Shown in pieces: positions 30,497 to 45,093 of a stretch of DNA of 64,000 nt (position 1 is the first letter of the stretch; the number at the start of each line of letters is the position of its first letter). Source of the stretch: an uncultured Clostridia bacterium (GTDB lineage Bacteria; Bacillota; Clostridia; Oscillospirales; Ruminococcaceae); contig CANRAS010000001.1 in the NCBI GenBank assembly GCA_947628655.1, positions 1-64,000 on the forward strand, in the 5' to 3' direction. The notes beneath the pieces are model-generated. The model saw only the letters and a program-made list of their open reading frames with translations, was not told the DNA's origin and did not search any database. A program made the position numbers and the translations under genes.

Positions 30497-30700
30497 TAGA
30501 GGTAAGCGGTAAGAGGTAAGAAGTAAGAGGTAAGAAGTAAGAGCGCCCCCGCCGTTGGCGGGGGCGTTTGGCGTAGCAACCGTAACCGACCCCGCCTTTA
30601 GCAGTTTATAGTTAAGAGTGAATAGCGCATAGTAATGACGTTCTCCCCGCCTACGGCGGGGAGAACGCTGTACAAAAATCCCCCCGCCGTTGGCGGGGTG
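30497..30700. repeat. Heptamer array and palindromes after the glucanase
   Basis: Directly after the stop codon are about six GGTAAGA/AGTAAGA heptamers (30503-30540). Then GCGCCCCCGCC/GGCGGGGGCG (30542-30566), a TTATAGTTAAGAGTGAATAGC module and two CCCCGCC/GGCGGGG palindromes follow. No gene was seen. Confidence 0.7.
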
Positions 30701-30945
30701 TATTTGTGGCACTTTGTGTGGCACTTCTTGTGGCACTTACAAACCGCATTGTACTGCGGGTTGGGCAGACTTGTGCCACAAATCGCAAATTCTATACGTT
30801 TTTTCGTATGCAGTTTTGTGCATATGATTTATAAAAATGTTCTTAGAAATAGAAAATAAGTGCCACAAGTGCCAAACCCGCATTGTTAAGCCAAATAAAG
30901 TGCCACATCAAAGTGCCACAAGAAGTGCCGCAAGTGCCACAAATT
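30700..30945. repeat. Constant-core, variable-arm element, copy A (GTGGCAC unit)
   Basis: GTGGCACTT occurs at 30706, 30718 and 30730 (12-bp period). The inverse unit AAGTGCCAC occurs near 30770 and at 30858, 30867 (partial), 30898, 30911, 30923 (one change) and 30932. Between the arms lies an A+T-rich core (30827-30851, containing AAATGTTCTTAGAA), the reverse complement of the core in copies B and C. A TTGGCTTAAC box (minus strand, about 30885-30895) and a CGCATTG palindromic box (30743-30760) are also shared. It is oriented opposite to B and C and lies just upstream of the ATPase-helicase promoter. Confidence 0.8.
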
Positions 30946-30959
30946 TCCGCGATTTTCCA

Positions 30960-31085
30960 AACACGCCGTCGGCAGGGCGTATTGACTTAAAGACAATCTT
31001 TCCGCGCCCGTATGGTCGCGGAAAATAAGGGGACGCGAGAAAACGCCTTACCGCAACGAGCAACGCCGTGACCCAAATTCCCACC
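30960..31085. repeat. Diverged copy of a hairpin-rich repeat
   Basis: This segment (GGGCGTATTGACTTAAAGA, then CAATCTTTCCGCGCCCGTATGG-like sequence, then ATAAGGGGACGCGAGAAAACGCC, described in parts) is related to 11540-11650 and shares its first words with 58010-58060 and 60630-60650. Confidence 0.65.
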
Positions 31086-31096
31086 GTATTAACCGC

Positions 31097-31125
31097 TTGC
31101 TTTTTTGAAATAGATGTGGTATAAT
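31097..31125 (+). promoter_or_regulatory. Sigma-A promoter for the ATPase-helicase pair
   Basis: TTGCTT (31097-31102), 17 bp, TATAAT (31120-31125) with TGG extension, 48 bp before the ATPase start codon. Confidence 0.78.
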
Positions 31126-31173
31126 AAAAGTTAACGATAAATTTCGATAATTTATAATCAAAGGGTTGATACT

Positions 31174-32481
31174 ATGCAAATTCCGAAACGAATAGCGCAG
31201 GGGTTGATTAACGCGCTTAAAGGCGGTGTTGTTCCGCGCGTGGGATTGGGATATATCGCGGTAGGGCGCGACAGGGAAATTGAAACCTTGCTCCGTGATG
31301 TTGGGATAGCCGAGGACGGCGGGGCGTTTTTCCGCTTTATAGTCGGGAAATACGGCAGCGGAAAGAGTTTCCTTTTGCAAACTATGCGGGCGCACGTTAT
31401 GGACAGGGGCTTTGCGGCGGCGGACGCAGATTTGTCGCCCGAACGAAGGCTTATGGGAACAAAAGGGCAGGGTCTTGCCACTTACCGCGAACTTATGAAG
31501 TCGCTTTCCGTAAAGGCAAAACCCGACGGCGGGGCGCTTTCGCTGATACTCGAAAAGTGGATAGATAAACTGCGCGGCGAAGTTTTAAGCACGGGAATGG
31601 AGCGCGATAACCCGTTCTTTAACGTAGAAGTCAAAAAGAAGATTTTCGCGGAGATAAACGGACTTAATGATATGGTTCACGGGTTTGATTTCGCGAAAGT
31701 CATTGACGCGTATTACTACAGCTTGTCAAACGGCGACGACGCGGGCGCTGTAAACGCGGTACGGTGGCTTAGAGGAGAATATTCGTCAAAATCCGAGGCA
31801 CGCGCCGATTTGGGCGTCGGTGTTATAATCTCCGACGACAATTGGTATGACTATATAAAGCTGATGTGCGCGTTTTTAGTAAGCGCGGGATACAAGGGTC
31901 TTGTCGTGATGATTGACGAACTTGTTAATATTATGAAGATACCGAACTCCGTCACACGGCAGTATAATTACGAAAAAATGCTGATGATGTACAACGACTG
32001 TATGCAGGGAAAGGCGTCGCATCTGGGGATTATAATGGGCGGAACACCGCAGTGCATAGAGGACACGCGGCGCGGAGTATTCAGCTATGACGCTTTGCGT
32101 TCGCGCCTTGAAAGCGGTCGTTTCGCCGTCGAGGGTTCGCACGATATGTTAGCGCCTATAATCCGCCTTGACCCGCTGACTTATGAGGAACTCACGGTGC
32201 TGACTGAGAAACTCGCGGACATTCACGCGGGGCTTTACGGCTATGAGCCGAAGATTACGCTGGAGGACAGAATTTTCTTTGTCAAAGCCGAATTTCAGCG
32301 CATAGGCGCACAAACAAACATCACCCCGCGCGAAATGATACGCGATTTTATCGAACTGCTGAATATTTCATACCAGCACCCCGAAAAGCCGATAGCGGAA
32401 CTTATGGGCGAGGACGAGTTCAAGTTCTCGGAAAGCGACGACAACGGTGACAGCGACGGCTTTGAAGATTTCGATTTGTAA
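31174..32481 (+). CDS. BrxD-like P-loop ATPase (DUF2791)
   Basis: This 435-aa ATPase matches the DUF2791 family, called BrxD in BREX/Pgl defence loci and also found in Ter-linked DNA-processing modules. It opens with IPKRIAQGLINALKGGVVPRVG, a family hallmark. Walker A GKYGSGKS is at residues 58-65, DLSPERRLMGTKGQG follows, and the Walker B strand LVVMIDELVNI is near 245. The last 25 residues are acidic. It is followed 65 bp later by the helicase that usually accompanies it. No pglX, pglZ or other BREX gene is in the window, so this is a stand-alone pair. A vWA-PP2C-SseB operon lies about 4 kb upstream. Confidence 0.85.
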   Translation: MQIPKRIAQGLINALKGGVVPRVGLGYIAVGRDREIETLLRDVGIAEDGGAFFRFIVGKYGSGKSFLLQTMRAHVMDRGFAAADADLSPERRLMGTKGQGLATYRELMKSLSVKAKPDGGALSLILEKWIDKLRGEVLSTGMERDNPFFNVEVKKKIFAEINGLNDMVHGFDFAKVIDAYYYSLSNGDDAGAVNAVRWLRGEYSSKSEARADLGVGVIISDDNWYDYIKLMCAFLVSAGYKGLVVMIDELVNIMKIPNSVTRQYNYEKMLMMYNDCMQGKASHLGIIMGGTPQCIEDTRRGVFSYDALRSRLESGRFAVEGSHDMLAPIIRLDPLTYEELTVLTEKLADIHAGLYGYEPKITLEDRIFFVKAEFQRIGAQTNITPREMIRDFIELLNISYQHPEKPIAELMGEDEFKFSESDDNGDSDGFEDFDL

Positions 32482-32546
32482 ACAAAATCACACTGCAAAT
32501 AAAAGCGAATATAATGTACTAAGCGGTTTTCAGAGGAATGTAAAAA

Positions 32547-34757
32547 ATGAGCGAGAGTGTTTTCAACCGATTTGCGCCGTTCATACGCGATTATATCTAC
32601 AGTCACAAGTGGGAAGAACTCCATGAGATACAAGTCGCGGCGGCGAATATCATTTTCGACACGGAATATAATCTACTGCTGACTTCGGGTACGGCAAGCG
32701 GAAAGACCGAGGCGGCGTTTCTTCCCGTGCTGACTCAGCTTTGGGAAAATCCGTCGGGGAGCGTCGGGGTGCTGTATGTATCTCCGCTGAAAGCGCTGAT
32801 AAACGACCAGTTCGAGCGGTTGGAGGAACTTCTCGAAGAGGCGGATATTCCCGTGACAAAGTGGCACGGCGACGCCTCTCCGTCCAAAAAGAAACGCTTG
32901 TTGCAAACGCCGCGCGGCGTTATGCAGACGACGCCCGAAAGCCTTGAAAGCCTGCTTATACGAAACAGCGCGGGCATAAATCGGCTGTTTTCAGACCTGC
33001 GGTTTGTGATAATTGATGAAGTTCATTACTTTATGGACGGCGACAGGGGATTGCAGCTGCTGTCGATTTTGGAGCGACTTCAGCGGATAATCGGCTATGA
33101 ACCGCGCCGAATTGGGCTTTCCGCTACGCTCGGCGACCCGACGAACGCCGAAAAGTGGCTTTCTATGGGAACTTCCGCAGAGTGCGTAACGCCGAAAGTT
33201 ACCGAAAAAAGCCGTAAGGTGCGCCTGTCGGTTGACTTTTTCCCGATAGCAGAGAAAATCCCGCAAAAGGACAGCAAGGTGTTGCTCGACAATTACTACA
33301 GTTATCTTTACAAGATAACAAGCGGAAAACGGTGTATTCTGTTTTCCAACAGCAAGGGCGAGGTGGAGGAAAACATCGGGCATTTAAAGCGCATTTCCGC
33401 CGAAAAGCACGGGCGCGATGTTTACCTTGTCCACCACGCGAATGTTTCCCCCGCTTTGCGCGAGTTCGCCGAAGAACGTATGCGCGGGGGAGAACTCCCC
33501 GTTTGTACGGGCGCTACCGTAACGCTTGAACTCGGAATTGACCTCGGTCATCTTGAAAGAATAGTCCAGACGGGCTGTCCGCTGACTGTATCGGGATTTG
33601 TCCAAAGACTAGGCAGAACGGGACGGCGCGGCGGTACGGGGGAGATGTACTTTGCGTTCCGTCAGGATATGAGCGTTCCGCAGAATTTGTTTTATAAGGA
33701 CATAAACTGGGATTTCGTGATGTGCATAGCGCAAATTCTGCTTTACACCCGCGAAAAGTGGGTAGAGCCGATGTATCTGCCGAAAATGCCGTTCAGTATG
33801 CTTTATCACCAGACAATGGCGATAATGGCGTCGTCGGGGAGCGTTCAGCCGAGGGATTTGGCACGGCAGATATTAACGCTGAATGTGTTCTCCGATATTT
33901 CAAAGGACGATTATCTTCTGCTTTTACGGCACCTGCTCGAAAACGAACACCTCGAACGCTCCGAGGACGGCGGACTGCTTATCGGGAAAAAGGGCGAGGG
34001 GATAGTCAATAATTACGAGTTTTTGGCGGTGTTTTCCGTACCGCTTGAATTTACCGTTCGGCAGGGTTCGGAGGTTATCGGCACGGTGCAGAACCCGTTC
34101 CCGCCGAAGTCGCAGTTCGCGCTTGCGGGTCAGCCGTGGGAAGTCACCGAACTTGACAAAAAGGAACTTATCATCTATGTAAAGAAGATAGAGGGCGTAT
34201 CCGCTAATATGTGGACGGACACGGGAAACGAATACGTTCACACAATGGTTATGAAGAAAATTCTGGAAATTATTCAAAGCGACGAGGAGTATATGTTCCT
34301 GAGCGCGTCGGCGAAAAAACGGCTGTCGGACATTCGTATGCTCTGCCGAAATGCGGATTATTCGGATGATTTCTCGGATAAAATGATTGAGGACAAAACG
34401 CACGGGGAACGTATGGTTCTGCCGATTTCCGATAGTGGTTTCGCCGTGTTCCCGTTTTTGGGAACGCGCGGAACAATGGCTCTGCTGTACGCCCTGCGCG
34501 AACGCGGTTTCCGCGCGGAGGTTTACCTGTCAAAGTACATTCCGATTTGCATTGAAGTGACGACCGACAGGGGAAAACAAACGCTGATTAACGCGTTAAA
34601 CGAGATAAAGGCAAACGGCGCGGACAAATACAAGTTCACGATACCCGATAACTGCGAGATAGCGGGGAAGTTCAACGACTATATCCCGCGCGGACTGTTA
34701 AAAAAGCAGTATATTGAGGATTATCTCGACACGGACGATTTGGCGAATATCGAATAA
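32547..34757 (+). CDS. BrxHI-like DEAD/DEAH-box helicase
   Basis: This 736-aa superfamily 2 helicase has motif I TSGTASGKTEAAF (about residues 46-58), motif Ia YVSPLKALINDQ, motif II DEVH (about 156-159), motif III LSATLGD, and motif VI QRLGRTGRRGG (about 351-361). The C-terminal half of about 370 residues has no recognised domain. The pattern matches Lhr-type helicases such as BrxHI, which pair with BrxD. It probably moves on or unwinds DNA together with the ATPase upstream. A role in phage defence or in stress-linked DNA processing is inferred from relatives only. Confidence 0.87.
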   Translation: MSESVFNRFAPFIRDYIYSHKWEELHEIQVAAANIIFDTEYNLLLTSGTASGKTEAAFLPVLTQLWENPSGSVGVLYVSPLKALINDQFERLEELLEEADIPVTKWHGDASPSKKKRLLQTPRGVMQTTPESLESLLIRNSAGINRLFSDLRFVIIDEVHYFMDGDRGLQLLSILERLQRIIGYEPRRIGLSATLGDPTNAEKWLSMGTSAECVTPKVTEKSRKVRLSVDFFPIAEKIPQKDSKVLLDNYYSYLYKITSGKRCILFSNSKGEVEENIGHLKRISAEKHGRDVYLVHHANVSPALREFAEERMRGGELPVCTGATVTLELGIDLGHLERIVQTGCPLTVSGFVQRLGRTGRRGGTGEMYFAFRQDMSVPQNLFYKDINWDFVMCIAQILLYTREKWVEPMYLPKMPFSMLYHQTMAIMASSGSVQPRDLARQILTLNVFSDISKDDYLLLLRHLLENEHLERSEDGGLLIGKKGEGIVNNYEFLAVFSVPLEFTVRQGSEVIGTVQNPFPPKSQFALAGQPWEVTELDKKELIIYVKKIEGVSANMWTDTGNEYVHTMVMKKILEIIQSDEEYMFLSASAKKRLSDIRMLCRNADYSDDFSDKMIEDKTHGERMVLPISDSGFAVFPFLGTRGTMALLYALRERGFRAEVYLSKYIPICIEVTTDRGKQTLINALNEIKANGADKYKFTIPDNCEIAGKFNDYIPRGLLKKQYIEDYLDTDDLANIE

Positions 34758-34815
34758 TCGGGCGGATTTGTGCAAAGTTCACAAAAAGTGCCGTGGGAAA
34801 TTGACGAATACGTCA

Positions 34816-34844
34816 TTGAAATTCTTATAGGAATGTGTTATAAT
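34816..34844 (+). promoter_or_regulatory. Sigma-A promoter for the cys operon
   Basis: TTGAAA (34816-34821), 17 bp, TATAAT (34839-34844) with TGT extension. Transcription would start near 34851, at the head of the T-box leader. Confidence 0.8.
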
Positions 34845-34850
34845 ATATTA

Positions 34851-35100
34851 TAAGTTTTGTAAATAACAAAGGCGTTAATGCAGTCAGAGTAACCGAAAAA
34901 GTGATGCCCAGAGAGCCGCGCGGCGCTGAAAGCGCGGAGTTCACGTTCGGAGAAGTGCGTCTGTACAGCCGGCGCGGGGAAATAAAGTATCCGCGCACGT
35001 TTTCCGCGTTAAGGAGAATGAGGGGCAAAGTTCTGCCTAAAGCGAAGTGGAACAGCGTTTTTGTACGCCTTCGCGCTTTTTAAGCGCGGGGGCTTTTCTT
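34851..35100 (+). promoter_or_regulatory. T-box leader, cysteine specifier
   Basis: This tRNA-sensing riboswitch precedes cysE-cysS. The Stem I features are an AGAGAG sequence at about 34908 and, on the 3' side, a specifier loop GAAG-TGC-GTC with the Cys codon TGC at 34956-34958. The T-box bulge region is AAGTGGAACAGCG (35045-35057), where TGGA can pair with the tRNA 3' end. The antiterminator pairs GCGAAG (35042-35047) with CTTCGC (35068-35073). The competing terminator is a 12-bp stem, 35067-35093, followed by TTTTCTT. Uncharged tRNA-Cys should therefore allow read-through when cysteine is short. Confidence 0.92.
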
Positions 35101-35111
35101 ATGGAGGCATT

Positions 35112-35780
35112 ATGTTTGATAAATTAAAGGCTGAAATAGAATCTATAAAAGCCCGCGACCCCGCCGTTCATTCGGCGTGGGAGGTGATTTTTCTCTATCC
35201 GTCGTTCAAGGCGGTGAGGAGTTATCGCCGCGCGCATTGGTTTCATACGCACGGACATACGTTCATTGCAAGGTGGATTTCCCAGCGTTCGCGCCACAAG
35301 ACGGGCATTGAAATTCACCCCGCCGCGAAAATCGGCAAGGGCTTGTTTATCGACCACGGCGCGGGCGTTGTTATCGGCGAAACAACAGAGATAGGCGACT
35401 ACTGCACGCTCTATCAGAATGTAACGCTCGGCGGTACGGGAAAGGACGTCGGAAAGCGCCACCCGACGCTCGGAAATAACGTTATGGTGGGCGCGGGCGC
35501 AAGGGTATTGGGTCCTTTTAAGATAGGGGATAATTCCAAAATCGCGGCGAACGCCGTGGTTCTCGAAGAAGTCCCGCCGAACTGCACGGCGGTCGGCGTT
35601 CCCGCAAGGGTAGTAAAGCGCGACGGCGTTCGCGTAAACAACAGCGACCTCGACCAGATACATATTCCCGACCCCGTAAGCCAGCTTATCTGTGAACAGC
35701 AGATGTGCATTGACAGGCTTACAAAGGAAATAGAACAGCTTAAAAGCGACATCAAAGCCGTTAAGGAGGAGAAAAAGTGA
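35112..35780 (+). CDS. cysE: Serine O-acetyltransferase
   Basis: CysE acetylates L-serine to O-acetylserine, the first committed step of cysteine synthesis. The 222-aa form lacks most of the N-terminal domain of the E. coli enzyme, as is usual in Firmicutes. A left-handed beta-helix of hexapeptide repeats is visible (IEIHPAAKIGKGLFIDHGAG, VVIGETTEIGDYCTLYQNV, TLGGTGKD). The catalytic Asp-His is in FIDHG. The start is the ATG at 35112 after GGAGG, immediately downstream of the T-box terminator. It overlaps cysS by 4 nt (GTGA). Control by tRNA-Cys charging is indicated. Confidence 0.96.
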   Translation: MFDKLKAEIESIKARDPAVHSAWEVIFLYPSFKAVRSYRRAHWFHTHGHTFIARWISQRSRHKTGIEIHPAAKIGKGLFIDHGAGVVIGETTEIGDYCTLYQNVTLGGTGKDVGKRHPTLGNNVMVGAGARVLGPFKIGDNSKIAANAVVLEEVPPNCTAVGVPARVVKRDGVRVNNSDLDQIHIPDPVSQLICEQQMCIDRLTKEIEQLKSDIKAVKEEKK

Positions 35781-37168
35781 AAATCTACAACACTATGACG
35801 CGCAAAAAGGAAGAATTAAAGCCGATTACGGAAAATACCGTCAAGATATACTGCTGCGGACCTACGGTTTATAATCTTATCCACATCGGAAACGCCCGCG
35901 CATTATGCGTATTCGACACATTGCGCAGGTATCTCGAATACAGAGGGTACAAGGTTTTCTATGTGCAGAACTTCACGGACGTTGACGATAAGATAATCAA
36001 AAAGGCGAACGAACTCGGAAAAACCGCGCTTGAAGTTTCCGAAAACGCGATAAAGGAGTATTTCACGGACGCGGAGGGTCTGAACGTGCGCCGCGCGGAC
36101 GTTCACCCGAAAGTCACGGAAAATATGGATATTATAATCGACATCGTGAAAACGCTCGTCGATAAAGGCTACGCGTATGAAGCTGACGGCGATGTGTATT
36201 TTGACGTGAGCAAATTTCCCGAATACGGCAAGCTGTCGCACCAGCCTCTTGAGGAACTTCAGGCGGGCGCGAGGATAGAAGTCGGCGAGAAGAAACGCGA
36301 CCCTATGGATTTTGCCGTATGGAAAGCCGCGAAACCGGGCGAACCGTTCTGGGAGTCGCCGTTCGGACAGGGCAGACCCGGCTGGCATATCGAATGTTCC
36401 GCGATGAGCAGGCACTACATCGGCGATACAATCGACATTCACGGCGGGGGAGCGGATCTTATCTTCCCGCACCACGAAAACGAGATTGCCCAAAGCGAAT
36501 GTGCGACGGGCTGTACCCTCGCGAATATCTGGATGCACAACGGTATGCTGAACGTCGATAACAAGAAGATGTCGAAGTCGGCGGGGAACTTCTTCCTTGT
36601 GCGCGATATGGCGAAAGAGTTTGGCTATGAACCCATTCGCTTTATGCTGTTGTCCGTGCATTACAGAGGACAATTGAATTACACGACCGAGGTAATCGAA
36701 AGCTGTAAATCCGCGCTCGCAAGGCTTTATAACTGCCGTGATACAATGGAGAGAACGCTCGGCACGGCAAAGGACGGGGGAGCGTCCGAGTTCGCGAAAA
36801 ACAGCGCAAGCACCGCCCGCGACGCGTTCATAAAGGCAATGGACGACGACCTTAACACCGCCGACGCGATTTCCGCAGTTTTCGACCTCGTAAGGGTAAT
36901 AAACACCGCCCTTGCCGATAAAGACGTTACAAACGGAGATATTTCTGTATATCTTGACGAATTTAATTCATTGACAAATGTGTTAGGGTTGTTGTATAAT
37001 AAGAGTAAGGACGATATTCCCGCGGATATTCTTGAACTTTTAGAACAGCGCAAAGAGGCGAGAAAAGCAAAGGACTTCGCGCAGGCGGATAAACTAAGAG
37101 ATGAAATAACCGCCCGCGGATATATCGTAGAGGAAACGCGTCAGGGAACTGTAATTAAAAAAGCGTGA
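35777..37168 (+). CDS. cysS: Cysteinyl-tRNA synthetase
   Basis: CysS charges tRNA-Cys with cysteine. The 463-aa class I enzyme has YCCGPTVYNLIHIGNAR at residues about 27-43 (zinc-binding Cys and HIGH-type motif HIGN), WHIECSAMS with HHENEIAQSE for zinc and cysteine binding, and KMSKSAGNF as the KMSKS loop. The start is GTG, overlapping the cysE stop. Pairing cysteine supply (cysE) and use (cysS) behind a Cys T-box is a coherent unit. Confidence 0.97.
   Translation: MKIYNTMTRKKEELKPITENTVKIYCCGPTVYNLIHIGNARALCVFDTLRRYLEYRGYKVFYVQNFTDVDDKIIKKANELGKTALEVSENAIKEYFTDAEGLNVRRADVHPKVTENMDIIIDIVKTLVDKGYAYEADGDVYFDVSKFPEYGKLSHQPLEELQAGARIEVGEKKRDPMDFAVWKAAKPGEPFWESPFGQGRPGWHIECSAMSRHYIGDTIDIHGGGADLIFPHHENEIAQSECATGCTLANIWMHNGMLNVDNKKMSKSAGNFFLVRDMAKEFGYEPIRFMLLSVHYRGQLNYTTEVIESCKSALARLYNCRDTMERTLGTAKDGGASEFAKNSASTARDAFIKAMDDDLNTADAISAVFDLVRVINTALADKDVTNGDISVYLDEFNSLTNVLGLLYNKSKDDIPADILELLEQRKEARKAKDFAQADKLRDEITARGYIVEETRQGTVIKKA
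36971..37000 (+). promoter_or_regulatory. Promoter-like sequence inside cysS
   Basis: TTGACA (36971-36976) and TATAAT (36995-37000) with an 18-bp spacer and a TTG before the -10 lie within the 3' part of cysS. They could give the downstream cyclophilin genes expression independent of the T-box. Confidence 0.5.
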
Positions 37169-37188
37169 GATTTGAAAGGAAAAAGGAT

Positions 37189-38049
37189 TTGAAAAAGTTT
37201 ATTTTTGCCGTATTAGCGGCGGTGTGCGCTTTGACGTTTTCGGGCTGTATGCCACAGCAGGAAACCCACGAAAACGGAATGGCAGGCTATGATTTCAAGC
37301 AGATGAACACGGATTTTATTCAGCTCAAACCGCCGTCGGCGGGGGATAAAATCGCGGTTATTGATACCGATTACGGTGAAATCCGCGTTGTACTGTACGA
37401 ACAGTACGCGCCGAACGCCGTGGCGAACTTCATTAAAAACGCCGAGGCGGGCAATTACAACGATATGCCGATAAAAGGCGTGCGCGACGGCGTGTATTTC
37501 CTCACGGGGGGCTGGGAGGACAAAAAGGGCAACTACGTCGGCAGAAACAGCGATGATGAATTGGTAGCCGACGAGTATTCCGTTGACCTCTGGCCGTTTA
37601 CGGGCGCGCTTATGGGATTTTCGGAGGACACGGGATACAGCGACGCGCGGTGGTTTATCGCGAATAACGATGAAGAATCGCTTACAAAAGAGGCGATAGA
37701 CGAACTGAAAGCGCAGACCGCGGAAACCCGCGACGACCCCGTCGAGCGCGAAAAACTCCTCACGATGTTCGACAAGTTCTATGAATACGGCGGAGTTTTC
37801 GGATACGCCGGGGAATATGCCGTATACGGGCAGACGTATCTGGGTCTTGACGTTGTGAAGAAACTCACGCACATATCGTCAAACGACGAAGGCGAGGCGC
37901 TCGAAGAAGTTATGATAAACAGCGTGACGATTTCGGAGTTTAAAGAGGGGGACGCGACGGACGTTTATCCGCGCGAACCGCTCCACCCGCTTGATGAAAG
38001 CGAAGTTTCAGACAGCGGTTCAAAAGAAAGTTCGGAGGTATCGCAGTGA
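37189..38049 (+). CDS. Divergent cyclophilin-like lipoprotein (copy 1)
   Basis: This exported lipoprotein of 286 aa (TTG start at 37189 after GGAAAAAGGA; a GTG at 37165 overlapping cysS is the alternative) has lipobox TFSGC. The cyclophilin-like domain (KIAVIDTDYGEIRVVLYEQYAPNAVANF, about residues 50-80) keeps the first strands of a PPIase. The catalytic Arg motif is replaced (IKGVRDGVYFLTGG), and a long helical insert (about 145-215) separates it from VYGQTYLGLDVVKKL. The fold is kept but isomerase activity is doubtful. It is first of three tandem paralogues. Confidence 0.8.
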   Translation: MKKFIFAVLAAVCALTFSGCMPQQETHENGMAGYDFKQMNTDFIQLKPPSAGDKIAVIDTDYGEIRVVLYEQYAPNAVANFIKNAEAGNYNDMPIKGVRDGVYFLTGGWEDKKGNYVGRNSDDELVADEYSVDLWPFTGALMGFSEDTGYSDARWFIANNDEESLTKEAIDELKAQTAETRDDPVEREKLLTMFDKFYEYGGVFGYAGEYAVYGQTYLGLDVVKKLTHISSNDEGEALEEVMINSVTISEFKEGDATDVYPREPLHPLDESEVSDSGSKESSEVSQ

Positions 38050-38900
38050 AGTTAAGATATGCGCTTATGAGCGTCCTGCTGGCGGGGACAGCGCTGTTCG
38101 CGGGGTGCAATAGCAATAAATTTGAAGTGAAAAGCGAAAAGCCGAAAGAAATCGCAGACTTCGACGGCAATGTAAAGGACGTAACGCCGAAAAGCGGTGA
38201 TTTAATAGCGACAATAGAAATCGAGGGCTACGGCACAATGAAAGCCGTGCTGTTCCCCGAAGCCGCGCCCGTGGGCGTTGAGAACTTCCAAAAGCTGTGC
38301 GACGCTAAGTATTATGACGGGCTGAAAATTCACAGGGTGATGAAAGGCTTTATGATGCAAGGCGGAAGTGCAAACGGCGACGGCACGGGCGGAGATGCTT
38401 TGGTAAACGGCGGTAAATTCTCGATTGAAACCGCGCAGAACGCCCGCCACTTCTACGGCGCGCTGAGTTACGCTAACGCGGGCATTGACAACAACACAAC
38501 GCAGTTCTTTATAATCAACAACAAAACGCCCGTCACGCTCGACACGTCAAACCTTGACGCAGCTCAACAGCAGATAAACTCGGATCTTGAATATCTCAAA
38601 GAATACGAAAAGGAGTTTGACCCTGCGGTTTTAGACAGGTATTTAAGCGAGGTTAAAAGCAGTCAGTATACGCTAGACTTTACAAAATACGCAACCGATG
38701 AAATAAAGGCGCGGTACGCCGAAAAGGGCGGTTATCCGTGGCTTGACGGCGGGTATACGGTGTTCGGGCAGGTGTACGAGGGCTTTGACGTTATCGACGC
38801 TGTCGCCGACGCGGAAGTCGTCACAAACGCGGGCGGTGAAAAATCCGAGCCTAAAGAGGATATTATCATAAAGACTATAACGGTGTCTACTTTTGAATAA
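38046..38900 (+). CDS. Cyclophilin-type peptidyl-prolyl isomerase lipoprotein (copy 2)
   Basis: This 284-aa lipoprotein (lipobox LFAGC, Cys21) is translationally coupled by a 4-nt GTGA overlap to copy 1. Its cyclophilin domain is the most canonical of the three: YGTMKAVLFPEAAPVGVENF, IHRVMKGFMMQGG with the catalytic Arg, GDGTGG, and YANAGIDNNTTQFFII. A helical insert of about 70 residues precedes the final WLDGGYTVFGQVYEGFDVI. It is probably an extracytoplasmic foldase for exported proteins. Confidence 0.92.
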   Translation: MKLRYALMSVLLAGTALFAGCNSNKFEVKSEKPKEIADFDGNVKDVTPKSGDLIATIEIEGYGTMKAVLFPEAAPVGVENFQKLCDAKYYDGLKIHRVMKGFMMQGGSANGDGTGGDALVNGGKFSIETAQNARHFYGALSYANAGIDNNTTQFFIINNKTPVTLDTSNLDAAQQQINSDLEYLKEYEKEFDPAVLDRYLSEVKSSQYTLDFTKYATDEIKARYAEKGGYPWLDGGYTVFGQVYEGFDVIDAVADAEVVTNAGGEKSEPKEDIIIKTITVSTFE

Positions 38901-38917
38901 AAAAGCGGAGGTGCAAG

Positions 38918-39772
38918 ATGAAACTGAAAAATATTTTGATGTGCGGAGTTCTCGCCGTGTCAAGCGCGCTGTGCTTTTCGGGCTGTAAGGGCGGTTCGTC
39001 CGCGGGAAATCTCTCCGAAGAACTGACGTTTAAGGACGGCGACAAGATAGCGGAAATCACTATTGAGGATTACGGCACGATTAAGTTTAAGCTGTTCCCC
39101 GACATTGCTCCGACGGCGGTCGAGAATTTTGAAATGCTCGCAAACGACGGTTATTACGACGGCTTGAAAATCCACAGCGTTGCAAAAGACCTCTGCATAC
39201 AGGGCGGTTCGCTTTACGGCGACGGCACGGGCGGTTCGGCTCTTGTAAACGACGACGGCTATTTCCCCGTTGAAACAAGCCCCGACGCGCGGAACTTCTA
39301 CGGCGCTTTGGGCTATTCCGCGAATGAATTCGGCGAAAACACGGCTGTTTTCTATATCGTGAACAGCAAGAAAACAAGCGATATAACGCAGTATTCCCCC
39401 GACCTTATAAAAAGCAAGGCGAACACCTACGCCGACCAAAAGGAGGGTCTTGAGGAAATGGACCCCGTGGCAATGGAACTTACATACCAAGAGCAGAGCC
39501 TGAATAACCTCGCGGATATGTTAAGCAAGGCGGGCGACGATGTTGTAAAGCGCTACGCCGAAAAGGGCGGTTATCCGCTTTGGGACGGCAGTTACACGGT
39601 GTTCGGGCAGACGTTTGAGGGCTTTGAAGTTCTCGATAAAATATCGAACGCCGAAACGACAATGGGCAAGGACGGCACAAATTCCAAGCCGAAAACGGAT
39701 ATTATCATTTCAAGCGTTGTAGTTTACGAATATGTAACGCCCGAAGCGCCCGAAGAAGAAGTATCCGAATAA
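38918..39772 (+). CDS. Cyclophilin-like lipoprotein (copy 3)
   Basis: This 284-aa lipoprotein (lipobox CFSGC) follows copy 2 by 17 bp with an AGCGGAGG site. The domain is like copy 2 (YGTIKFKLFPDIAPTAVENF, then IQGGSLYGDGTGG, then WDGSYTVFGQTFEGFEVLDKI). The catalytic Arg position is Ser in IHSVAKDLCIQGG, and the FxIxN-type segment reads AVFYIVN. It may bind rather than isomerise proline peptides. The tail is acidic (EAPEEEVSE). A terminator follows. Confidence 0.88.
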   Translation: MKLKNILMCGVLAVSSALCFSGCKGGSSAGNLSEELTFKDGDKIAEITIEDYGTIKFKLFPDIAPTAVENFEMLANDGYYDGLKIHSVAKDLCIQGGSLYGDGTGGSALVNDDGYFPVETSPDARNFYGALGYSANEFGENTAVFYIVNSKKTSDITQYSPDLIKSKANTYADQKEGLEEMDPVAMELTYQEQSLNNLADMLSKAGDDVVKRYAEKGGYPLWDGSYTVFGQTFEGFEVLDKISNAETTMGKDGTNSKPKTDIIISSVVVYEYVTPEAPEEEVSE

Positions 39773-39792
39773 CCGCAGAAATTTGAGGGCAA

Positions 39793-39830
39793 AAAATTCC
39801 CGCGCGGATTTCCGTGCGGGATTTTTGTTG
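39793..39830. terminator. Bidirectional intrinsic terminator
   Basis: The stem CCCGCGCGG / CCGTGCGGG (39799-39820) is flanked by AAAAAATT on the left and ATTTTTG on the right. It can end the cyclophilin operon and the converging gatCAB-membrane protein operon. Confidence 0.88.
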
Positions 39831-39839
39831 TTTTGTATC

Positions 39840-40751
39840 TTATTTTGTATCATCGAAAACCGCCGTTTCGCTGTAGAAATATGTGATGAACGGAAACGCG
39901 CCGATAGAGTTACATTCTTTTCTGAACATCATTTCCTTGCCCTTTAAATCAAGCGCGAAAAGCGGTATGCATAACAGCACGTCGTCATAGCTTAAATACT
40001 CGCGCGGGCGGGCGTAACTGCACCGCGCGGAAAATTGCATAAGGGGGCGAGAATATCTTAAATACTCGCGCGGGCGGGCGTAACTGCACATTTCCTGCGC
40101 GGTAACGCGGTAAATCGTCAGATTTTGTTTCCCGCCGAGATACGGCTCCGCCCAGTTTCGCAGGAAGTTTAACACCGCCGTATCGGGCGCGCCTGTCATT
40201 ACGAGCGTCGGCGGGTTCTCACGGAATAAATCGCGCATATCAGCGGGTTTTTCAGCATTGATATACTTCTCGCCGTTTTTGATAACATAAAACTTCTTTG
40301 CCGAAACGGATTTGTAAATAATCACGGTTAAGAACGGCTCTATAACCATTAAAACCAACATCGCGAACCCCAGCGCGAGATGCACATATTCGCCGAGCAG
40401 ATACGCCGCGAACAGAAAAACCAGTATGCCACCCATAACGAATATTGCGACAAACGTCGCCGCGCCTGTGTGCCTTATCTCGCTGATTTCCATAACCTTG
40501 CGGGAAATCTGCCTTTGTATCTGCGCGTTGACGTCGCTTTCGGGAGTGATTTTCTGTTTTATAAGCTTAATTATAACAGGCGTTCCCGCGACGATAAACA
40601 GCCCCGCCAAGAACGTGAATACTATCACGGGATAGCACCAATCGTCAAAGCCCTCCATCGCGGAAATCACGAGAAACCCGAAGTCCGCAAGCAGTACCGC
40701 CCAGCCTATAATCTGCCAAAACAAATACGGATGACGCCGTCTGAATTTCAT
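39840..40751 (-). CDS. Membrane protein, 303 aa, with a local tandem duplication
   Basis: Four hydrophobic segments are visible (about residues 10-30, 40-60, 95-120 and 125-150). The first two are paired with a charged loop, and a soluble C-terminal domain of about 150 aa follows. The family is not recognised. Near residues 222-265 a 22-codon stretch is duplicated in frame: CSYARPREYL occurs twice, encoded by the repeated DNA at about 39991-40023 and 40057-40089 (66-bp offset). The gene overlaps gatB by 4 nt and is the last of the gat operon. Confidence 0.7.
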   Translation of the reverse strand: MKFRRRHPYLFWQIIGWAVLLADFGFLVISAMEGFDDWCYPVIVFTFLAGLFIVAGTPVIIKLIKQKITPESDVNAQIQRQISRKVMEISEIRHTGAATFVAIFVMGGILVFLFAAYLLGEYVHLALGFAMLVLMVIEPFLTVIIYKSVSAKKFYVIKNGEKYINAEKPADMRDLFRENPPTLVMTGAPDTAVLNFLRNWAEPYLGGKQNLTIYRVTAQEMCSYARPREYLRYSRPLMQFSARCSYARPREYLSYDDVLLCIPLFALDLKGKEMMFRKECNSIGAFPFITYFYSETAVFDDTK

Positions 40752-42187
40752 GAATTGCCCTCCAGTTTACTGCGGATATATTCCTGTATAGCCTTAGGGG
40801 AAGCCGCGCCTTTAAGCGCCTTGTTCGCCTGCCCCATAAAGAACCCGAACACCTTTTGGTCGCCTTTTTTGTACTGCTCGACGGCTTTCGGGTTGTTCGC
40901 GATTATCTCGTCTACGACCAAGGCTATAGCCCCGCTGTCCTCTTTTATCCACAAATCGTCCCTGTCGGCTATATCTTTTGGAGAACCGCCGTTTTCAATC
41001 ATTTCGCGCAGGATAGTCTTTGCGTTCGCCTGCGAGATTTTGTCGGTCTGCATAAACTCAACAAGCTGAGCAAATTCCGCACCGCCGAAGTTCAGATTTT
41101 CCATATCAGCCTCGCCGCGGTTTATGCGGTTCATAAGTTCGCCGATGATATAATTCGCGACGGCTTTCGGGTTGTTGTACTCCGCGATTGCCTCGTCAAA
41201 GAAATCGCATATCGTCTTGTTTCCGACGATGATGTCCGCGTCCGCTTTTTTAATGCCGTATTCGTTCACATAACGCTCTACGCGCTGTTCGGGAAGTTCG
41301 GGGATAGAACGCCGAATTTCTTCCAACTCTTCTTCCGTGAAAATAATCGGAGGAATGTCGGGGTCGGGGAAGTAGCGATAATCGTGCGCGTCCTCTTTCG
41401 AGCGCATAGCCGTGGTTTCGCCGAGCTGTTCGTTAAAACGGCGCGTCTGCTGAATTACGCGTTCGCCATTGTCGAGAAGTTCCTCCTGCCGTTCTATCTC
41501 CGCCTCAATAGCGCGGGAAATAGCTTTAAGGGAATTCAGGTTTTTAAGTTCCGTGCGCGTTCCGAGTTCATTTGAGCCTTTGGGCGCAATAGAAATATTC
41601 ACGTCGCACCGAATAGAACCCTGCTCCATTTTGCAGTCGCAGATACCCGCGTATTGCAAGAGCAGTTTTATCTTTTCGATAAACGCTATTACCTCGTCCG
41701 CGCTGTGAAAATCAGGCTCTGTTACTATCTCAATCAAAGGAACACCACAGCGGTTGTAGTCCGCGAGAGATATTCTGTTCACATCATCGTGAACGAGTTT
41801 CCCCGCGTCCTCTTCAAGGTGTATGCGGTTTATGCGGATATTCTTCTCCGCACCGTTTACGTTTATTTTAACATTGCCCGAAAGGCAGACGGGGCGCGGC
41901 ATTTGCGAAATCTGATATGCTTTCGGCAGGTCGGGGTAGAAATAGTTCTTTCTGTCCCATTTTGTAAATCGGGAAATCTCGCAGTTCATAACATATCCAG
42001 CCTTGATGATGTATTCGACGGCTTTTCGGTTCAAAACGGGCAGAGTTCCCGGCAGTCCGCTGCATACGGGACAGCACCGCGAGTTCGGCGTACCGCCGAA
42101 TTCCGCTGAGCAGGTGCAGAAAACCTTGGATTTTGTAAGAAGTTCCGCGTGTATTTCAAGACCCATTGTGGGAAAATATGCGCTCAT
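40748..42187 (-). CDS. gatB: Asp/Glu-tRNA amidotransferase subunit B
   Basis: GatB is the tRNA-binding and kinase subunit of GatCAB, which turns Glu-tRNA-Gln into Gln-tRNA-Gln (and Asp-tRNA-Asn into Asn-tRNA-Asn). The 479-aa length is usual. The cradle domain has GLEIHAELLTKSKVFC, CPVCSGLPGTLPVLN, KNYFYPDLPKAYQISQ and DYNRCGVPLIEIVTEPD. The helical and YqeY domains end in QEYIRSKLEGN. It lies 12 bp after gatA and overlaps the next gene. Its presence implies that the organism makes Gln-tRNA indirectly. Confidence 0.98.
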   Translation of the reverse strand: MSAYFPTMGLEIHAELLTKSKVFCTCSAEFGGTPNSRCCPVCSGLPGTLPVLNRKAVEYIIKAGYVMNCEISRFTKWDRKNYFYPDLPKAYQISQMPRPVCLSGNVKINVNGAEKNIRINRIHLEEDAGKLVHDDVNRISLADYNRCGVPLIEIVTEPDFHSADEVIAFIEKIKLLLQYAGICDCKMEQGSIRCDVNISIAPKGSNELGTRTELKNLNSLKAISRAIEAEIERQEELLDNGERVIQQTRRFNEQLGETTAMRSKEDAHDYRYFPDPDIPPIIFTEEELEEIRRSIPELPEQRVERYVNEYGIKKADADIIVGNKTICDFFDEAIAEYNNPKAVANYIIGELMNRINRGEADMENLNFGGAEFAQLVEFMQTDKISQANAKTILREMIENGGSPKDIADRDDLWIKEDSGAIALVVDEIIANNPKAVEQYKKGDQKVFGFFMGQANKALKGAASPKAIQEYIRSKLEGNS

Positions 42188-42199
42188 CTTAACACCCCC

Positions 42200-43648
42200 T
42201 TAAAGTTTCGGAGAAATCGGAGCAAATCCGTTTTCCCATTCATCGGCGACTTGAAGAACAGTCGTCTCGTCAAACCGCCGTCCGATAATCGACATTCCGA
42301 CAGGCAAGCCGTTTTCGGTGTAACCGCACGTCGTGGAAACGGCGGGCAGTTTCGCTATGTTCACGGTGACTGTGCAGATGTCTGCCATATACATCTTTAC
42401 GGGGTCGTTGTCCTGCTCGCCTATTTTGTACGCGGGAGTCGGCGCGGTCGGCGTGAGGATAACGTCCGCTATGCCGAATATATCGTTGTATTCCTTGATT
42501 ATCTCCTGTTTTAACGCCAGCGCTTTCTTGTAGTAAGCGTCATAATATCCGCTTGAAAGCGCGTAGTTGCCGAGCAGGATACGGCGCTTTACTTCCTCGC
42601 CGAACCCGCGCGAACGGCTGTCGCGGATAAGTTCCTCGTAAGTCCTGCCCTCGCCTCGGAAACCGTATTTTATCCCGTCGAACCTTGACAGGTTTGACGC
42701 CGCCTCCGCGCAAGCTATAAGATAATAAGCGGGAACGGCGTATTTAAGCCCCGGCATTGAGCAGTCAACAAGCACCGCGCCGCGCTTTTCGAGTTCTTTT
42801 GACGCGTCAAGGACGTGCTGTTTTACGGCAGGCTCTACTGCGTCGGAGAAGAACTCTTTCGGCAGGGCGATTTTAAGTCCGCTTATCGGCTTGCCTATCT
42901 TCTCCGAAAAATCGGGCGTATCAACGTTCGCCGAAGTCGCGTCGTGCCTGTCGTGACCGCATATCGCGTTCAGCAGAAGAGCGCAGTCGCGCGCGTCGTT
43001 CGCAATAGGTCCTATCTGGTCGAGCGAACTTGCGAACGCGACAAGTCCGTAGCGCGAAACGCGTCCGTAGGTGGGCTTTATTCCCGTGACGCCGCAGAAA
43101 CTCGCGGGCTGTCTGATAGAACCGCCCGTATCCGAGCCTAGCGCGGCAGGCGCAAGCCCCGCCGCCACCGCCGCCGCCGAACCGCCCGAAGAACCTCCCG
43201 GTACGCGTTCGAGGTCATACGGGTTTCTCGTTTTGGCAAACGCCGATGTTTGTGTAGAACCGCCCATCGCGAACTCGTCCATAGACGTTTTGCCGAGCAG
43301 AACATACCCCTGCGCGTTCAGCTTTTCGATAACCGCTGCGTTATACGGCGGAATGAAGTTCTCCAGCATTTTGGAGGCGCACGTCGTCCGAACGCCGTCA
43401 ATGCAGATGTTATCCTTGACGGCAAGCGGAATGCCCGTAAGCGGTGCGGAATTTCCCGCATTGATAACCGCCTGCGCTTTCTCCGCGTCTTGCAGAGCCT
43501 TTTCTTTCGTCACCGTAATGTATGAAAGCAGGCGCGGGTCGGCGTCTTCAATTCTCTTGAAATACTCTCCGCATAGCTCCGCCGCGCTTATTTCCTTGCT
43601 GTCAAGCGCTTTGCGCAGAGCGCGGATATTTGTTCGTTTTATATCCAT
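42200..43648 (-). CDS. gatA: Asp/Glu-tRNA amidotransferase subunit A
   Basis: GatA is the glutaminase of GatCAB. The 482-aa amidase-signature protein has the Ser-cisSer-Lys triad: Lys in PLAVKDNI, the two Ser in GGSSGGSAAAVAAG and GSDTGGSIRQPASFC. It lies 20 bp downstream of gatC and upstream of gatB. Confidence 0.98.
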   Translation of the reverse strand: MDIKRTNIRALRKALDSKEISAAELCGEYFKRIEDADPRLLSYITVTKEKALQDAEKAQAVINAGNSAPLTGIPLAVKDNICIDGVRTTCASKMLENFIPPYNAAVIEKLNAQGYVLLGKTSMDEFAMGGSTQTSAFAKTRNPYDLERVPGGSSGGSAAAVAAGLAPAALGSDTGGSIRQPASFCGVTGIKPTYGRVSRYGLVAFASSLDQIGPIANDARDCALLLNAICGHDRHDATSANVDTPDFSEKIGKPISGLKIALPKEFFSDAVEPAVKQHVLDASKELEKRGAVLVDCSMPGLKYAVPAYYLIACAEAASNLSRFDGIKYGFRGEGRTYEELIRDSRSRGFGEEVKRRILLGNYALSSGYYDAYYKKALALKQEIIKEYNDIFGIADVILTPTAPTPAYKIGEQDNDPVKMYMADICTVTVNIAKLPAVSTTCGYTENGLPVGMSIIGRRFDETTVLQVADEWENGFAPISPKL

Positions 43649-43668
43649 ACTTCCACTCCTTTATCAGA

Positions 43669-43953
43669 CTATTCGACAACCTTTGGAACGACATAGCACC
43701 CGTCGGTGTTTTCCGCGTTGGAAAGCAGTTTTTCCGTCGGGAAACTCTCTTCGGCTATATCCTCGCGGGTATCGGAGAGAGAAATCTCGTTTTCGTCTTT
43801 CGTGTCGTCATACACGAGGTCGAACGCTTTTATTTCGTCCATAAGTTCGATGATGTCGCTCATTTCGCCCATAACTTTTTTCATTCCCGCCTCGTCATAG
43901 TCCAGCTTTGAAAGCTCGCAAAGGTGCTTTATCGTGCTAAGTTCTACAGCCAT
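43669..43953 (-). CDS. gatC: Asp/Glu-tRNA amidotransferase subunit C
   Basis: This 94-aa GatC wraps between GatA and GatB. The sequence shows the family pattern: TIKHLCELSKLDYDEAGMKK, then MSDIIELMDEIKAFD, then LREDIAEESFPTEKLLSNAEN-like (present as TREDIAEES and TEKLLSNAEN) and a final GCYVVPKVVE. It is first gene of the gatCAB operon. The repeat elements B and C lie upstream of it. Confidence 0.96.
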   Translation of the reverse strand: MAVELSTIKHLCELSKLDYDEAGMKKVMGEMSDIIELMDEIKAFDLVYDDTKDENEISLSDTREDIAEESFPTEKLLSNAENTDGCYVVPKVVE

Positions 43954-44089
43954 AAAAACCTGTCCTTTCGTGTAAAATTATCCATACATTGTTATTATAT
44001 CCTATATTCGCCTATTTTTCAAGTGCATTTTAAAAAATTTCTCGCTTTGCGCGTTTTCCGTTGTGCAACAAGCACAAATATGCTTTTCG

Positions 44090-44345
44090 GGTGTAAAAAT
44101 ATCGGGGCATATTGACGAGCGCGCGCAGAGGCTGGAGGGCTCGTTCCCGTAGTTGCTGGAGAATAGTTGCTGGTTATTAGTTTAGAGTGTCCCCTGTTTC
44201 GCTTTTTTGCGTCGGCATCGTGCCGACGCTTTGGGCGAAACGGTGCGGCATCCTGCCGCAGCCTTCGGCGGACGGAAAGATTGTCTTTGAGTTCAGAGGT
44301 TGTTTTTCTGGGGAATACAACGCCCCCGCGGTAGCGGGGGCGGTT
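44090..44345. repeat. Gene-free palindromic stretch upstream of gatC
   Basis: It contains a GCGTCGGCA/TGCCGACGC hairpin (44210-44232), GCGGCATCCTGCCGC, the widespread GGAAAGATTGTCTTTGAG module, and CGCCCCCGC/GCGGGGGCG just before element B. No gene was recognised. Confidence 0.55.
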
Positions 44346-44690
44346 TTGCTGAGAGAGTACTGACAAGATTTGGGCGGACTTTGCGCCTTGGGCAGACTTT
44401 TGGGCGGACTTTCGGGCGGAGTTTGAACCTGAATTTGGCTTAATACCGCCGTTTGGGCGGAGTTTAATATATTTTTATATATTCTAAGAACATTTTTATA
44501 ATACACATAAAAATTAAAGAAGCAGAAAAAAGTTATAAGAAATTCGATTTTTTTGCGCAACTCCGCCCAAATCGCATAACAATGCGGAATTTTCACGAAA
44601 AGTCCGCCCAGAATTCCGCCCGCAGCTCCGCCCAACCGTCAATCTCCGCCCAAAACTTCCCCTCTTAACCCACAAAAACCGCCCCGCCGT
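44345..44690. repeat. Constant-core, variable-arm element, copy B (GGGCGGA unit)
   Basis: GGGCGGA occurs at 44372, 44402, 44414 and 44455. The inverse TCCGCCC occurs at 44562, 44603, 44615, 44627 and 44645, mostly 12 bp apart. The core TATATTCTAAGAACATTTTT lies at 44478-44497 and continues as ATAAT. A TTTGGCTTAA box is at 44434-44443 and a CGCATAACAATGCGG box at 44573-44587. The left flank GGTTTTGCTGAGA and the right flank CTTAACCC-CAAAAAC-CGCC are shared with copy C. Confidence 0.85.
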
Positions 44691-45060
44691 TGGCGGGGGC
44701 GGTTTTGCTGAGAAAATTCGTACAGGCTATTTGGCTTAACAGAGCCGTTCGTACAGGTTGTGTACAGGTTGCGTACAGGTTGCGTACAGGTTAGTTGGCT
44801 TAACAGAGCCACGCGTACAGGTTGAGCCTGTTTTTTTTATATTCTAAGAACATTTTTTATAATGCAATTAACTGCACGAGGAGCAACAGAAAAACGTCTA
44901 AGGATTTGGCAAAATACCCGTCAACCTGTACGAACCCGCATTGCTATGCGATTTAACCTGTACACAAACCTGTACATAACCTGTACATAACCTGTACAAC
45001 CTGTACCAAACTTCCCTCTTAACCCGCAAAAACACACCCCGCCAACGGCGGGGCGCTCTT
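44691..45060. repeat. Constant-core, variable-arm element, copy C (GTACAGG unit)
   Basis: GTACAGG occurs at 44720, 44751, 44762, 44773, 44784 and 44815 (11-bp period in the centre). The inverse CCTGTAC occurs at 44925, 44957, 44969, 44980, 44991 and 45000. The core matches copy B (44838-44863, with one extra T). TTGGCTTAACAGAGCC occurs twice (44731 and 44795), and a GCATTGCTATGCG box at 44938-44950 corresponds to the box of copy B. It is directly adjacent to copy B in the same orientation. Confidence 0.88.
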
Positions 45061-45093
45061 ACCTCTAACCTCTAACCTCTTACCTCTTACCGG

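Follow-up and report, generated by a model that had tools for sequence, protein, structure and literature searches.

The stretch of DNA analysed here, called the window, comprises 64,000 nucleotides from the genome of an uncultured Clostridia bacterium and carries three copies of a non-coding repeat of about 300 bases. The whole genome (2.09 Mb in 34 contigs) contains 16 full copies, so the three-copy element described in the initial annotation of this sequence holds for the window and not for the genome. The arms of each copy, inverted relative to each other around an A+T-rich core, are built mainly from one word of 7-9 bp. As that annotation had proposed, the words are copy-specific: 12 different ones are found among the 16 copies. 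We tentatively interpret the copies as phased, orphan sites for nucleoprotein complexes that resemble parC/tubC or phage origins, each with its own putative reader and possibly acting as decoys; this interpretation is possible rather than probable.

The full copies were numbered e1 to e16 across the genome, e1, e2 and e3 being those of the window. A pattern of the core, allowing up to 3 mismatches, was detected at 12 places in the genome (one for the backward-read control). A sequence-only model built from 11 cores gave 16 matches at an E value of 1.9e-15 or better, including four full copies beyond the 12 pattern places, as well as weaker matches, among them a degenerate extra copy at C5:47.6k. 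Tandem CAGRCTT words were located inside known copies in 14 of 14 matches (control 1). In the window, a blind scan for any 7-mer occurring three or more times on the left, with the reverse complement three or more times on the right, retrieved only e1, e2 and e3, which are present where they had been placed. The core, described as constant, is exact in e1 and in e2 (TTCTAAGAACATTTTTATAA at 44482-44501, plus strand) and has one extra T in e3 (44842-44861, plus strand). The genome-wide search showed that the cores are flanked by matched arms.

In all 16 copies the common 7-mer of the left arm returns as its reverse complement on the right. The inverted arms with the same word are thus general, whereas their uniformity is not: the arms of e6 mix GGCAGAC, GGCATAC and GGCAGGC, and e1 contains one word in the other orientation. 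The matches of the left words to their own right arm sum to 63.6 for the 16 copies, where permutations average 8.2 and reach at most 41.9; for the 12 non-redundant copies the sum is 47.4, with a permutation average of 5.6 and a maximum of 36.1. With the right arms permuted among copies, none of 100,000 permutations reaches the observed match for either set, which supports the matching arms within each copy described in the initial annotation. Within and between the arms of a copy, the seven word positions display identities of 0.89-1.00, the three bases flanking the word on either side 0.40-0.84 and the farther bases 0.21-0.42. For the word common to both arms, the identity is 0.91-1.00 at the seven positions, compared with 0.26-0.42 at positions at least four bases away from it.

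The identity of units in mirror register is 0.872 versus 0.867 in random register (reached by 4,544 of 20,000 shuffles), and a variant is present in both arms at mirror positions in one of 15 register pairs. Because the mirror register is no more alike than a random one and the variants are unmirrored, the arms have a consensus word in common and are not matched base by base as in a helix. The pairing RNA arms suggested as an alternative in the initial annotation are therefore not supported, at least in mirror register. Since the steps are mostly close to whole helical turns, the two arms have little spacer sequence in common and the variants are unmirrored, recognition of one DNA face by a protein is favoured over an in-register RNA or DNA hairpin.

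Related copies indicate how the words change. The copies e1 and e6 are sisters (core identity 0.90, clade support 100/100) and their words differ in both arms; one right-arm unit of e1, AAGTCTGCCC, resembles the word of e6. In e14, ATACG is found in 4 of 5 left units and 3 of 4 right units and the remainder are AGACG, so two words are mixed. In three pairs of copies having the same word, changes affect 6 of 217 word columns versus 67 of 673 other columns (Fisher p 2e-4), a word being a stretch with at most one mismatch in at least one copy, a rule that favours low word counts. Taken singly, the pairs give p values of 0.02, 0.16 and 0.02, and one alone is not significant.

The strongest rival explanation is a foldback repeat under neutral concerted evolution, where hairpins formed at replication, together with template switching or mismatch correction in short word-word stems, would homogenise the arms and units within each copy. 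Strong hairpins are possible on both strands of every copy (z from -3.1 to -16.6, 30 shuffles each), and PMC8604942 describes how template switching homogenises the arms of inverted repeats. The mixture of AGACG and ATACG in both arms of e14 agrees with such a process, unpaired spacers could escape repair, and the fewer word changes in same-word pairs fit homogenisation equally. On the other hand, the spacing is largely kept between copies although words and spacers are only 0.36 and 0.37 identical at like places, and the variants are unmirrored in register, even if out-of-register pairing might accommodate this last point. We consider this explanation rather unlikely.

The usual order in a copy is outer units, box, inner unit, core, inner unit, box and outer units. 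Left boxes are much like TTTGGCTTAACANNGC, and right boxes are either CGCAT....ATGCG-like palindromes or of the left type. The 40-base core contains 78-90% A+T, the arms 38-65%. In the 12 non-redundant copies, the spacing of 11-12 bp, previously noted as near one DNA turn, applies to 58 of 100 steps between neighbouring units; 22 steps span a box and measure 31-33 or 41 bp, one is of 53 bp and 19 are of 8-9, 13 or 17-20 bp. For all within-arm distances (n=268), the phase concentration is 0.61 at a period of 10.5-10.75 bp, 0.56 at 11 bp and 0.46 at 10 bp, and at most 0.27 at periods outside 10-11.75 bp (no more than 0.21 at 8-9.5 bp and 0.19 at 12-13 bp; 0.27 at 14 bp). For the short blocks taken by themselves, the peak is broad (10-12 bp). 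With randomly drawn long steps, none of 5,000 trials reaches the observed phase.

The promoter-like core, the terminator-like hairpins (7 found versus 1.6 expected) and a conserved AAAAA...TAAGGATTT-like block downstream are also compatible with an autoregulated small RNA, transcribed from a core promoter through the right arm to the GC hairpin, the words then being operators or pairing sites. However, promoter-like sites number 2 versus 1.1 +- 1.0 expected in the region, Rfam gives no match above gathering score at the elements, pairing in mirror register is not favoured, and the reading frames of the right half differ between copies compared by eye. This explanation appears very improbable. 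Small open reading frames (ORFs) through the right half, open in some copies, were rejected as coding since the frames shift between the copies compared. A 152-aa reverse ORF at 44177-44635 was likewise not retained as a gene: it runs into e2 and has matching ORFs in other copies, and was taken as shared DNA.

None of the 16 copies is located between divergent genes (longest-ORF layout). The copies e2 and e9 are identical between their GC hairpins and diverge outside; the copy at G000:C5:115594 has an interior identical to that of e2. Different words adjoin in four head-to-tail pairs, namely e2-e3, e5-e4, e14-e13 and e8 with the degenerate copy. Inverted AGATTGTC modules and TGCGGGTTAAGAG end motifs flank part of the copies. 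The end motif was found at 16 places, 11 in known copies, one in a separate array on contig C10 described below and four without arms by eye. In addition, inverted AGATTGTC...GACAATCT modules with GC hairpins flank the loci L003, L005, L007, L012 and others, forming an outer repeat layer that encloses several copies.

Like miniature inverted-repeat transposable elements (MITEs), the repetitive extragenic palindromic and bacterial interspersed mosaic elements (REP/BIME) and further interspersed repeats of bacteria, the copies are short, non-coding, intergenic, palindromic and multicopy. A non-autonomous MITE-like transposon whose arms are transposase-binding subterminal repeats would account for 16 dispersed intergenic copies, for two identical copies at different places and for the flanking modules and end motifs. 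Twelve words would nevertheless be hard for one transposase to serve. The identity ends at GC hairpins that are common to other repeats, which recombination fits too, and five of the 16 end-motif places lie outside known copies. The copies of a MITE family generally have their ends in common, whereas here copy-specific arms surround a constant centre, and TGCGGGTTAAGAG-like ends, which would correspond to the shared terminal inverted repeats, occur in some of the copies. We regard a transposon origin as improbable.

Near 13 of the 16 copies, 20 neighbouring proteins are varied and include SpoIVA, MreB, KARI, CheD, GatC, a Fic protein, two Shango-like proteins and two without family. According to Pfam, neither parM nor parR is found among these 20 proteins (flanks of e1-e11, e13 and e14); MreB, although related to actin, is a chromosomal protein of cell shape. 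Some pairs of stretches have paralogues in common, for example L059 and L061 (52% over 450 aa).

Table 1. Features of the three window copies and words of the 16 full copies (arms in element orientation).
Feature	Position	Strand	Description
Copy e1	30681..30977	-	words GTGGCAC / GGCACTT; flanked by GC-rich hairpins, that at 30960-30977 degenerate
Core of e1	30829..30848	-	TTCTAAGAACATTTTTATAA, 0 mismatches
Left arm of e1	30858..30943	-	GGCACTT x6; box TTTGGCTTAACAATGC at 30880-30895
Right arm of e1	30704..30779	-	inverted GGCACTT x3, one AAGTCTGCCC, one GTGGCAC in other orientation
GC hairpin with T-run, terminator-like	44321..44347		left border of e2
Copy e2	44321..44698	+	word GGGCGGA; extends hairpin to hairpin
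Left arm of e2	44372..44461	+	units 44372, 44390 (variant GGGCAGA), 44402, 44414; inner unit 44455; box ~44434-44450
Core of e2	44474..44502	+	promoter-like TTTATA-17-TATAAT, 10/12 match
Right arm of e2	44559..44654	+	inverted units 44562, 44603, 44615, 44627, 44645; box CGCATAACAATGCG ~44573-44586
Copy e3	44682..45056	+	word GTACAGG; head to tail with e2, GC hairpin common to both
Left arm of e3	44720..44821	+	units 44720, 44751, 44762, 44773, 44784; inner unit 44815
Left-arm boxes of e3	~44730-44746 and ~44795-44810	+	
Core of e3	44836..44863	+	promoter-like TTTATA-16-TATAAT
Right arm of e3	44922..45006	+	inverted units 44925, 44957, 44969, 44980, 44991, 45000; box CGCATTGCTATGCG ~44938-44951
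GC hairpin, terminator-like on minus strand	45034..45056		right border of e3
Word of e1			GGCACTT
Word of e2, e9			GGGCGGA
Word of e3, e13			GTACAGG
Word of e4			GACAGAC
Word of e5, e15			AGACGTT
Word of e6			GGCAGAC/TATGGCA
Word of e7			GGACAGG
Word of e8			GCACGAG
Word of e10			GGGCAGG
Word of e11			TACACAC/TTACACA
Word of e12, e16			GTGCAGA
Word of e14			ATACGTT; the scan itself puts CGTTTTT first

Tandem 7-bp GGTAAGA-type arrays adjoin the elements at window positions 30500-30541 and 45056-45091 and are also found near other copies. Next to e1, two genes at 31174-34757 match the Shango defence proteins SngB and SngC. Three related genes, with mutual identities of 26-43%, follow in a row at 37165-39772. 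A T-box leader was observed at L060 11002-11224.

Of the 43 genus genomes and 394 order genomes searched with the model, only the own genome gives strong matches, and no full-length copies were found in the 42 congeners or in the 394-genome order sample; these model searches used stricter filters, and that of the order scored only 9 candidates per genome. Weak matches were obtained in 7 other genomes of the genus and 11 of the order, with at most 22.7 bits versus 57-88 for the 16 copies. The weak matches fetched from relatives are armless by a detector that recovers 13 of the 16 known copies, so that absence in the sampled relatives is no proof. Core matches in three congeners and two named records were rejected as copies, having no arms by eye. 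At one threshold, the detector gave one match on 40 stretches of 8 congeners (750 kb) and none on 20 stretches of 6 congeners (353 kb); a laxer version, applied to 30 loci, recovered the own copy and otherwise only box repeats and two low-count rows. CAGRCTT-type triples are present in none of the 42 congeners. The box motif alone is found in 21 of the 42 (backward control 3/42), and the six congener box places that were read are small hairpins or tandem arrays. In one congener, tandem 40-bp units are built on the box TTTGGCTTAACAGCGC (L091 1501-1640); other congeners have this box in small hairpins whose stems differ.

A distantly similar element, found by sampling congeners, lies at G016:C4:3573-4004 and has inverted arrays of the word GGTAGACA with similar boxes and an AT-rich centre. 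BLAST detected its homologue in a second congener, at G019:C111:3903-4342, with 84% identity and the same word GGTAGACA. These relatives differ from the elements of the own genome by being one per genome so far, by another core and by one word in both species.

A search of plasmids gave no matches, and a match in a Lactobacillus phage spans 55 query bases of word repeats. Scans of viral contigs for triples used the words of e3, e4, e6-e8, e10, e12 and e16 (those of e1, e2, e5, e11 and e14 were left out as triples) and yielded 77, at least 120, 2, 15 and 6 stretches. Filtering for element words retained, among the matches listed, 6 rows in 3 loci from 157 stretches of the first two scans and 6 rows in 2 loci from the remaining 40 stretches. 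The 22 viral places inspected as candidate phage arrays all lie inside an open frame and were taken as coding repeats.

A candidate for the type of reader comes from the own genome, where an array of the iteron TTTGGTAAACG (L212; G000:C10:55.9-57.0k) precedes a short initiator-like gene. It has seven TTTGGTAA units, all oriented alike, with box-like motifs, and is placed about 200 bases and more upstream of the gene; in three pairs the units are 11-12 bp apart. The encoded protein of 161 aa resembles phage DnaD-like loaders and O-like initiators (phrog_2514, E 4e-9; phrog_345, 1e-4), its match to Pfam DnaD_N (0.004) being below the cut-off. Matches of this protein are present in 14 of the 43 genus genomes, the own one counted, and direct repeats inside the gene's open frame, spaced by 11-12 bp or roughly double, in 5 of 20 congener matches; some of these could be protein-coding repeats. 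On the basis of the C10 array with its gene and of the in-gene repeats of congeners, an initiator-like reader is plausible. Elsewhere, at L236 1824-2005, a phage-type initiator-like gene has ten GGGCACAA units in its open frame, mostly at 12-bp steps. Compared with the iterons of congener initiators, the element words score 78, the null having a mean of 69 and a maximum of 75 in 500.

The interpretation as phased nucleoprotein sites supposes that a sequence-specific protein assembling along the DNA would bind the word of 7-9 bp, about one unit per helical turn. Phased arrays on both sides of the AT-rich, promoter-like core, with the arms facing each other, would allow the core to be folded into one complex, as by ParR on R1 parC or by an initiator on an iteron origin. 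Word and reader would have diverged in each copy, as in partition or initiator dialects, so that the copies avoid cross-talk. The reader would presumably be a protein of the winged-helix initiator-like or ParR/TubR-like class. The points counted in support are the matched copy-specific words, the near-whole-turn spacing, the fewer word changes, the differing words in both arms of sister copies and the lack of a gene family linked to three or more loci.

Known systems share several of these features. R1 ParMRC parC and the dialects of Clostridium perfringens plasmids have repeats of about 11 bp, arranged as two blocks with a promoter between them; according to PMC5016525, the promoter divides R1 parC. 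ParR dialects set incompatibility in ParMRC systems, and PMC9426499 attributes plasmid incompatibility to the specificity of ParR for its cognate parC. Tandem direct repeats of 10-20 bp, placed around or before the par promoter, characterize parC; the elements have steps of 11-12 bp to either side of a promoter-like core, but with the sides inverted. Unlike parC, the elements are chromosomal, with inverted arms, 16 copies and 12 words, and no parM or parR was seen beside the copies examined. The iterons and AT-rich region of iteron origins are found in the elements, which also resemble phage O-like and DnaD-like arrays by their short words, 11-12 bp steps, word differing by gene and AT-rich neighbour. 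The Sfi21 PER element, non-coding, origin-like and of 302 bp, is comparable; PMC6356513 presents a 302-bp non-coding phage element as an origin activated by infection and giving copy-dependent protection. In contrast to phage iterons and PER, the elements have inverted arms and many copies per chromosome, no initiator family lies beside them and no phage with the same words was recognised.

Several observations weigh against this interpretation. No reader was found: among the 12 stretches examined, no gene family is common to three or more, except ORFs inside the elements, so that the binding protein for each copy proposed in the initial annotation is not borne out. The only initiator-like gene lies at the separate C10 array, none being linked to the copies, and its protein has no good paralogue in the own genome (next best E 0.025). 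The reverse-complement control of the iteron comparison scores 75, hence the likeness is weak and not decisive; no element word was matched to an initiator in the viral places or the congener iterons, and no phage array with element words was recognised in viral contigs, among the matches listed. When a joint shift is applied to all long steps on a side, a control that mimics spacing inherited by common descent, 74 of 5,000 trials at 10.5 bp and 243 of 5,000 at 10.75 bp reach the phase; helical phasing is moderate evidence weakened by this control, suggestive and not conclusive. The number of promoter-like sites, 2 versus 1.1 +- 1.0 expected, also counts here. The kinship of e14 with e5 rests on the alignment of the arms and is not confirmed by the core tree, which leaves e14 unplaced (core identity 0.75 to e13 and 0.73 to e5). 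The repeats of R1 parC are direct, as also stated in the cited title of Dam and Gerdes, and those of the elements are inverted. Finally, arm homogenisation by template switching could also yield matched words.

If the copies are such nucleoprotein sites, a decoy or incompatibility function is the most likely one: chromosomal decoy sites would titrate or interfere with incoming replicons such as phages, plasmids or integrative and conjugative elements. A quite improbable extension would be a heritable, protein-free DNA defence, that is a bank of decoy origins or centromeres in which each copy holds the landing word of one invader, is kept apart from the others by its dialect and has both arms updated jointly. 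No report of 12 dialects of such sites on one chromosome was found in the portions of the published literature consulted. A single design of phased site occurs in this genome in 12 natural dialects, with one mixed state, and would allow a direct test of the joint change of word and reader and of the action of chromosomal orphan sites on incoming replicons.

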